Below, piece by piece: positions 39,599 to 61,734 of a stretch of DNA of 64,000 bases; the first letter of the stretch is position 1, and each line of letters begins with the position of its first letter. This DNA comes from Rubrivivax sp. GTDB taxonomy: Bacteria > Pseudomonadota > Gammaproteobacteria > Burkholderiales > Burkholderiaceae_C. The notes below the pieces were generated by a model. The model was not told the DNA's origin, searched no databases, and worked only from the letters and a program-made list of their open reading frames with translations. The stretch lies in NCBI GenBank assembly GCA_030681795.1, contig JAUXRG010000067.1, positions 1 through 64,000 on the forward strand. The letters are read 5' to 3'. Both the position numbers and the translations under genes were made by a program.

Positions 39599-41452
39599 TC
39601 ACGCCAGCCGGTTGCGCGTGCGGCGGTGGAAGAAGTGCGCTGCGGCCATGAAGACCCCGCTGAAACCCGCCAGCGCCAGCACGTCGGTCGTCACCGAGAA
39701 GTACGCGGTGCCTCCGAAGCCGATGCGGATCAGGTCGGCGCAGTACGACAGCGGTGACAAGGGCGACAACCACTGGCCCCAGACGGGCATTTGCGCATGC
39801 GGCACGAAAACGCCGCTGATGAAGACCAAAGGCAGCCGCACCAGGTTGGACAGCATCATCACTTGCGAGGGCCCTTCGGTGGCCGGCGCGGCCATCAACA
39901 CGCCCAGCGCCGAGAACGCCGTGGCACCCAGCAGCCAGCCCGCCAGCAGCGGCCACGTCGCGCTGACCTGCGCGCTGGTCAGCAGCAAGGCCGCGGCCAG
40001 CGGCAGCAGGGCCAGCAGCGCACCAAACGCGGCGCCCGCGCTCATATCGCCGGCCAGGATGGCCGACAGCGAAGCCGGCGAGGTGACCAGCCGCTCGAAG
40101 GTGCGGGCCTGGCGCTCCCACGGCGTGATCAGCGGGCCGACGGCCGAGGCGGTGAAGAACAGCGCCATCGCCGCGATGCCCGGCACCATCACCGACACCG
40201 GCGCGTCGTGCCCGGCCGCGAACGAGAGGTAGAAGAACAGCGGGAAGACGATGCCGAAGGTGACCACCGGCCCCTTCAGGTAATAGACGCGGGCGTTCTT
40301 CTTCGCGATCACCCAGGCGCAGCGCAACTGGCGCAGCAACTCGGCCATGCCGCCGTCCTCAGGCGTGCTCACTGGACTATCCTGCGCACTGCGCGCTCCG
40401 GGATGAGCGCTTTGGAGCGGCCATGCGCGCTGCACTGGACTACCCTGCGCACTGCGCGCTCCGGGATGAGCGCTTTGGAGCGGCCATGCGCGCTCATGGG
40501 CATCTCCGGTGATCGACACGAACACCTCTTCGAGCGTCGGCGCCAGCGTGTTCAGGCTCTCCAGGCGCAGGCCCAACTCAGTGCTGCGCGCAGCGATGTG
40601 CTGGGCCAGCGGCCCCGGCTCGGGGCTGAAGACGCGCCAGCCATCGACCAGCGTCTCCACCTCCATGCCCGTCCGCGGCAGCAGTTCGTCGGGCTTGGCA
40701 GCACGGCCGGCGAACTTCACGACCACCGAACGCCGGGACTCGACCCGGCCCCGAAGTGCCGCGGGGGTGTCGATGGCCGCCATGCAGCCGCGGTCGATGA
40801 TGGCCACGCGGTGGCACAACTGGTCGGCCTCGTCCATGTTGTGCGTGGTGATGAAGACCGTCATGCCCCGCTCGCGGTTCAGGCGCGCGATCACGTCCCG
40901 GATCATGTGGGCGCTGGCCACGTCCAGCCCCGAGGTCGGCTCGTCCAGGAACAGGATCTGCGGTGCGCTGACCAGCGCCATGCACAGCATCAGCCGCTGG
41001 CGCAGGCCCTTGGACAACTGACGGCCCTTCTGCGTGGCGCGTGCGGTGAGGTCGAAGGTCTGCAGCAACTCAGTGCAGCGCCGCTCGCGCTCAGCGCGGC
41101 CCACGCCATGCAGCTCGGCCATCAGCAGCACGTTCTGCTGCACCGTCAGGTCGGCATAGACGTTGGCCTCTTCCGGCACCACACCGATATGGCGCCGCGC
41201 GGCGCTGGGGTGTCGGTTGACGTCGATGCCATCCACCCGCGCGCGGCCTTCGGTGGGCGGCAGGAAGCCCGTCAGCATGCGCGCTGTCGTGCTCTTGCCC
41301 GCGCCATTGGGGCCCAGGAAGCCGAAGATCTCTCCGCGGGCCACCGTGAAGCTGACCTTGTCGACGGCGACGCGCTCGCCGAAGCGGCGTGTCAGGCTTT
41401 CGGCAACGAGCGCCGGAGGCACCGTGGGCGCGCCGGCTGCGTCGGCCTTCAC
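39599..41452 (-). CDS. Fused ABC-2 type transporter: N-terminal ATPase + C-terminal permease joined by a tandem-repeat linker
   Basis: GTG start at 41452 overlaps MBL stop (GTGA). ATPase: GPNGAGKSTTARML, QLSKGLRQRLMLCMALV, ILFLDEPTSGLD; permease: ARVYYLKGPVVTFGIVFPLFFYLSF...; one uninterrupted frame. Confidence 0.85.
   Translation of the reverse strand: MKADAAGAPTVPPALVAESLTRRFGERVAVDKVSFTVARGEIFGFLGPNGAGKSTTARMLTGFLPPTEGRARVDGIDVNRHPSAARRHIGVVPEEANVYADLTVQQNVLLMAELHGVGRAERERRCTELLQTFDLTARATQKGRQLSKGLRQRLMLCMALVSAPQILFLDEPTSGLDVASAHMIRDVIARLNRERGMTVFITTHNMDEADQLCHRVAIIDRGCMAAIDTPAALRGRVESRRSVVVKFAGRAAKPDELLPRTGMEVETLVDGWRVFSPEPGPLAQHIAARSTELGLRLESLNTLAPTLEEVFVSITGDAHERAWPLQSAHPGARSAQGSPVQRAWPLQSAHPGARSAQDSPVSTPEDGGMAELLRQLRCAWVIAKKNARVYYLKGPVVTFGIVFPLFFYLSFAAGHDAPVSVMVPGIAAMALFFTASAVGPLITPWERQARTFERLVTSPASLSAILAGDMSAGAAFGALLALLPLAAALLLTSAQVSATWPLLAGWLLGATAFSALGVLMAAPATEGPSQVMMLSNLVRLPLVFISGVFVPHAQMPVWGQWLSPLSPLSYCADLIRIGFGGTAYFSVTTDVLALAGFSGVFMAAAHFFHRRTRNRLA
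40371..40496 (-). repeat. 63-bp tandem duplication (2 copies) inside the fused ABC transporter gene (class IV element)
   Basis: 40371-40433 and 40434-40496: actggacta(t/c)cctgcgcactgcgcgctccgggatgagcgctttggagcggccatgcgcgct(gc/ca); 63 = 21 codons. Confidence 0.97.
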
Positions 41453-61674: not shown

Positions 61675-61684
61675 CAGGGCTCCT

Positions 61685-61734
61685 TCGTGCTGCGCACTCC
61701 GGTATTCGCCCTTGGGGCGGCCGGGCGCGCTCAT
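61685..61734 (-). repeat. Diverged class IV element upstream of ppdK
   Basis: Minus strand ATGAGCGCGCCCGGCCGCCCCAAGGGCGAATACCGGAGTGCGCAGC versus ATGAGCGCGCATGGCCGCTCCAAAGCGCTCATCCCGGAGCGCGCAGT at 40450-40496. Confidence 0.65.

Follow-up and report, generated by a model that had tools for sequence, protein, structure and literature searches.

The window, i.e. the whole 64,000-nt stretch of Rubrivivax sp. DNA that was analysed, contains a single stop-free frame of 617 aa on the - strand, running from a GTG at 41452 through a tandem repeat to a permease stop at 39599. Pfam placed ABC_tran at aa 31-174 and ABC2_membrane at aa 397-578 of this frame. The ABC transporter ATPase part (40497..41452, - strand) begins with GTG and ends where its orthologues end as separate genes, while the ABC-2 type permease part (39599..40372, - strand) is a separate gene in the related genome G017. 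Between them lie two 63-bp copies of a repeat (40371-40496, - strand), which are 98% identical. TRF reported a period of 63 with 2.1 copies (score 245 at 40363-40496), a repeat search found two 62-nt copies with 98% identity, and a 44-nt core occurred exactly twice in the window and in none of 100 shuffles. The description in the sequence-only reading, in which two near-identical copies separate ATPase and permease with no in-frame stop from one to the other, was borne out by these results, and the translation it gave for the linker is correct.

The short ORF that it proposed in another frame of the repeat also exists, reading M-SAHGRSKALIPERAVRRVVQ-C-SAHGRSKALIPERAVRRIVQ with a terminal TGA that overlaps the GTGAGC of the permease. 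This ORF starts at an ATGA (40494..40497, - strand), which would be the native target, consisting of the original permease start codon and the following A, and it stops in a GTGA (40369..40372, - strand) that overlaps the present permease GTG start. The two-unit array at the junction comprises 125 nt (40373..40497, - strand) and reads ATGAGCGCGC...CCA, then GTGA; it was delimited by the tandem repeat, by homology to dispersed 62-nt units and by the junctions of G017 and G573, which have no array.

When the locus was compared in relatives, as had been suggested, both G017 and G573 were found to carry two separate genes whose junction lacks the element. The G017 orthologues of the two halves are close (89% and 91% identical) and overlap by 14 nt, the ATPase TGA lying 11 nt beyond the permease GTG. 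In G573, the ATPase orthologue (80%) ends ...GGAHGHA* ahead of its permease, with an ATGA at the ATPase stop and an overlap of 4 nt. The flanks of the window's insert aligned with G017 without gaps on either side, and G017 has GTGG at the position of the window's target ATGA, so the ATGA is assigned as target by inference. In the window, the target ATGA would have been the permease start and the ATPase would originally have stopped 11 nt further on (a 14-nt overlap). As the insert of 125 nt is 2 modulo 3, the ATPase frame was shifted into the permease frame, which would have fused the two proteins.

The fusion depends on the inner unit junction, where comparison of the frame with two standard 62-nt units showed an extra base at 40432 (+ numbering), giving GTGCAGC, not GTGAGC. 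With this base the first unit is 63 nt and the fused frame stays open; had both units been of the standard 62 nt, the frame of the ATPase would stop, as ...SAHGRSKALIPERAVRRIVQ*, precisely at the GTGA of the permease. It is thus on a single base, in a single assembly, that the fusion rests. The element, unlike the fusion, does not hinge on base 40432 or on a possible sequencing error there. Compared with relatives in which the genes are separate and the junction is free of the element, the fusion would seem to be a side effect of insertion, and a fusion protein would presumably be produced from it. Lengths of 125 nt for an array and 63 nt for a unit were also found elsewhere (L031, L033, L102 and L107). 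In L102, a gene that was named amidohydrolase-like by eye contains a 63-nt unit in frame (around 4148), which adds about 21 aa.

The repeat occurs well beyond this transporter. A second copy in the same genome (contig C34, L002) is located exactly between two genes that were assigned by eye as peptide-ABC-type ATPases. The window's subtype was matched at E<=0.001 in 65 of 81 genomes of the same genus, and the core pattern without ends was present in 60 GTDB contigs in Burkholderiales, with carriers including Rubrivivax, Ideonella, Leptothrix, Aquincola, Piscinibacter and Xenophilus. In an order-wide sample, 3/399 genomes carried the window's subtype with two mismatches or fewer. The flanking genes are diverse and, by eye, share no common pathway. 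Judged from these matches, the repeat is a member of a dispersed Burkholderiales element family with units of about 59-63 nt and not a private linker.

It had been suggested that a local tandem duplication supplies a protein linker, and one could argue that such a linker was selected in the fused transporter, as the 617-aa frame is open and the 63-nt first unit preserves it. However, this explanation fails on origin, since the sequence is that of a dispersed element which normally lies between genes; relatives have separate genes, and the linker translation is a by-product frame of the element. We consider selection as a linker very improbable. The object of interest is the element family, which occupies and rebuilds stop/start overlaps, more than the fusion frame.

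A standard unit is 62 nt long, ATGAGCGCGCCGGGCCGCTCCCAAGCGCTCATCCCGGAGCGCGCAGCGCGGAGGGTAGTCCA, followed by RTGA, and its 21-codon ORF was intact in 86/87 units. Among 77 independent arrays (the window's included) scored with a rough coding model, 63 have the TGA of their 5' RTGA as the stop of the upstream coding frame, and in 59 the 3' RTGA opens the downstream coding frame. The two rules are obeyed together in 48 arrays, about a fifth fail the upstream rule under this rough model, and the window shows the downstream side only. The 5' RTGA itself was present in 72/77. The upstream end is ATGA in 67/77 and the downstream end GTGA in 56/77, a bias that would follow from a native first end and a second end supplied by the element. 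Array lengths are mostly 62, 124 or 186 nt. The same arrangement was seen in arrays found by core patterns without ends, in which the upstream rule held in 43/55 and the downstream rule in 42/55, and 37 of 39 single units were exactly 62 nt. The earlier idea of a short coupling ORF therefore comes close to the family pattern, in which an intact ORF overlaps the genes on both sides in most arrays, but it does not apply as such in the window, where the ATPase runs past the first ATGA, so that the ORF is not coupled to the ATPase. In the same operon as the fused ORF, a metallo-beta-lactamase-fold gene upstream overlaps the ATPase start by a GTGA (41449-41452, - strand), a comparable target that holds no element.

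Empty and filled versions of the same site were available at two junctions in addition to the window's own. At glyQ-glyS, the empty site in G044 reads ...TTGGC-ATGA-CCGCCCGCAACCTG, and the filled site in G017 reads ...CGGCGC-ATGA, then a two-unit 124-nt insert ending CCCAATGA, then CCGCCCGCAACCTG; GlyQ is 97% identical between the two genomes. At hslV-hslU, GGCGC-ATGA is followed directly by gene sequence in G046 and G055, and by the insert in G069. From these pairs, the unit enters directly 3' of the native ATGA, the upstream stop is kept and a new RTGA is supplied. Arrays of mixed subtype (L197, L204 and L218) suggest that arrays grew not by tandem copying alone but also by further units entering at the regenerated RTGA. 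At the glyQ-glyS junction of G018 (L114), an apparent remnant of the 3' half of the element was observed before an intact ATGA.

We therefore read the repeat in the window, with a probability of roughly 0.8, as a two-unit array of an apparently mobile short interspersed element that inserts after RTGA and whose insertion fused two genes. A unit of ~62 nt, with two short hairpins, an AGGG resembling a Shine-Dalgarno motif and a fresh 3' RTGA, would enter directly 3' of an RTGA, typically a TGA stop/ATG start overlap. After insertion, the upstream gene would still stop at its native ATGA, and the unit would be read as a 21-codon ORF ending at the new RTGA, which is the start of the downstream gene. 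As the form of the junction would be preserved, it could serve as a target again, allowing arrays to grow. Elements of this kind would offer a direct route by which two genes become one fused gene or proteins acquire new termini.

The units appear to be conserved for their hairpins rather than for a peptide. In an all-against-all covariation scan, pairs 12/22, 41/47 and 40/48 were in the top five, and the remaining two of the five involve column 11, beside pair 12/22. Standard pairing is kept at these three pairs in 95-99% of units, and both partners are seen to change, although the copies are related and the counts hence not independent. When 178 copies from all subtypes were pooled, the second hairpin had CG in 108 and TA in 46 as its outer pair, and GC in 150, AT in 8 and CG in 7 as its middle pair. 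An alternative stem, 25-30/37-42, was rejected as it is broken by changes at 37, 40 and 41. Single-unit RNA was not predicted to fold more stably than shuffles, and a search of Rfam returned only sub-threshold matches to unrelated families and no known RNA family.

If the element had instead been spread as a small gene for a functional microprotein, MSAxGRSxALIPERAxRRxVQ, the intact ORF in nearly all units would be accounted for. However, the three codon positions vary to a similar degree (0.05, 0.08 and 0.08), a pattern already in the direction of equally common nonsynonymous and synonymous changes, and the paired changes alter amino acids yet keep the base pairs. In sister subtypes, moreover, the related sequence is read in a different register or forms an N-terminal extension. 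It is therefore hard to believe that the peptide is what has been spread.

The 3' end of the unit resembles a ribosome-binding region, with an AGG at unit positions 52-54 (conserved 98-99%) ahead of the RTG at 63, so that a Shine-Dalgarno-like AGGG precedes the new RTGA start. Predicted pairing with the anti-Shine-Dalgarno sequence had a median of -9.9 kcal/mol at element 3' ends and -5.9 at native junction sequence (Wilcoxon p=0.014; stronger at the element in 30/48 junctions), and element 3' ends were also stronger than random genomic sequence (mean -2.7). The window's own element pairs weakly (-4.1). Termination-reinitiation at ATGA pairs, with a role for the Shine-Dalgarno motif, is established (PMC6728339), and we infer that the element could act through coupled reinitiation of this kind.

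One possibility is that copies are kept since the hairpins, Shine-Dalgarno motif and short ORF tune reinitiation of the downstream gene. The RTGA geometry and Shine-Dalgarno logic fit the known process (PMC6728339), pairing at element 3' ends is somewhat better than at native junctions, and the structure is conserved. However, the gain in pairing is modest, and the in-frame 60-nt forms serve as N-terminal extensions instead, so we regard selection for such tuning as possible but rather doubtful. A somewhat better supported possibility, which we place a little short of even odds, is that the element is a neutral passenger with no role in expression, whose mover targets RTGA or the exposed overlap, with selection tolerating the copies that remain readable. 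This would agree with presence that differs between close relatives at the same junction, with the diversity of the flanking genes and with native junctions that already show Shine-Dalgarno pairing of a similar order. However, rough gene calls in the element loci and the window gave 530 intergenic RTGA sites (both strands) against 81 at overlaps, the latter inflated as the loci were chosen for carrying the element. Tolerance alone would predict more intergenic copies and therefore does not easily explain the copies at overlaps; the hairpins and AGGG also remain conserved. Either the mover picks overlaps or copies are retained there.

Taking the family as a whole, the chances seem about even that a mobile unit of ~60 nt targets the stop/start overlap, keeps the stop, adds a ribosome-binding site and an RTGA and can be inserted again, forming a portable coupling cassette that rewrites operon junctions across a bacterial family, in which copy number and unit length (62 vs 63) set whether neighbouring proteins are separate, tailed or fused. 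Short bacterial repeats usually lie in non-coding gaps and, in Rickettsia, also inside genes, whereas this family occupies the tightest operon junctions and rebuilds them. Junctions that differ naturally by the presence of the element form matched pairs, on which the effects of overlap, Shine-Dalgarno sequence and local structure on translational coupling could be tested.

The closest known kinds of element are Rickettsia palindromic elements (RPEs), REPs and MITEs, each of which fails at least one defining feature that was tested. RPEs are likewise short hairpin repeats, and those within coding sequence can be translated in frame (PMC10969869). However, they are about 150 bp, occur in Rickettsia and lie within or between genes, whereas the present element is 59-63 nt, occurs in Burkholderiales and is mostly at stop/start overlaps, which it rebuilds; L102 was the one in-frame intragenic case. 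MITEs are also small non-autonomous repeats able to fuse with host ORFs (PMC10969869), but the ends of the element, TGAGCGCG... and ...GTCCARTGA, are by inspection not inverted repeats, its hairpins are internal and nothing but the shared RTGA is a candidate for a duplication. Coupled ATGA gene pairs have the identical overlap geometry and Shine-Dalgarno logic (PMC6728339), and the RTGA stop/start overlap is found on both sides in 48/77 arrays; in those pairs, however, the signals are native, whereas here an inserted unit carries them together with a short ORF between the genes.

A resemblance to REP/RAYT and IS200/IS605-derived repeats can also be seen. Such repeats are short, structured and dispersed and have no coding capacity for their mover. 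The units share these properties, and their entry 3' of a fixed short target is reminiscent of IS200/IS605. However, REPs are extragenic, while the element is at stop/start overlaps in 63/77 arrays. A Y1 transposase (PF01797) was not found in the window's own genome, and across the genus PF01797 was present in 26/65 carriers and 7/16 non-carriers, showing no association with the element. IS200-RAYT-type Y1 transposases were therefore rejected as the mover. No description of the family was found in the open-access literature on repeats, coupling, RPEs and Burkholderiales, a scope that makes this absence weak.

Related forms of 59 and 60 nt, such as ATGAGCCCGCCGGGCCGCCCCAAGGGCGAACTCCGGAGTGCGCAGCACGAAGGTACTCCA-GTGA in L213, are placed by the same rule, with an upstream stop at RTGA in 21/27 scorable cases. 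In a sample of the family, this sister subtype was found in 42/301 genomes and 24/141 genera, and a reversed control pattern gave no match among the genomes listed; it is wider within the family than the window's subtype was in the order-wide search. The window's own genome has 12 sister-subtype copies. The 60-nt form continues the reading frame of the downstream protein, which it lengthens by about 20 aa. A copy of this form, ATGA...ATGA (61675..61734, - strand), gives the in-frame N-terminal extension MSAPGRPKGEYRSAQHEGAL to a gene named by eye from its translation as pyruvate phosphate dikinase-like, which sits downstream of a malic-enzyme-like gene. N-termini like MSAPGRPKGEYRSAQHEG are, we assume, frequent in annotated Burkholderiales proteins. 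For annotation, such extensions and the window's linker would be element sequence and not ancestral protein.

The starts of contigs C96 and C56 of the same assembly (L177 and L178) share a ~140-bp sequence ending in a sister-subtype copy, and such repeats probably break the assembly there. Other GC-rich inverted repeats (CCCCCGAGGGGGC and CCCCCTCGGGGGG) were observed at gene junctions in the same genus (L115, L167, L186 and L187), and these look like a separate dispersed repeat.
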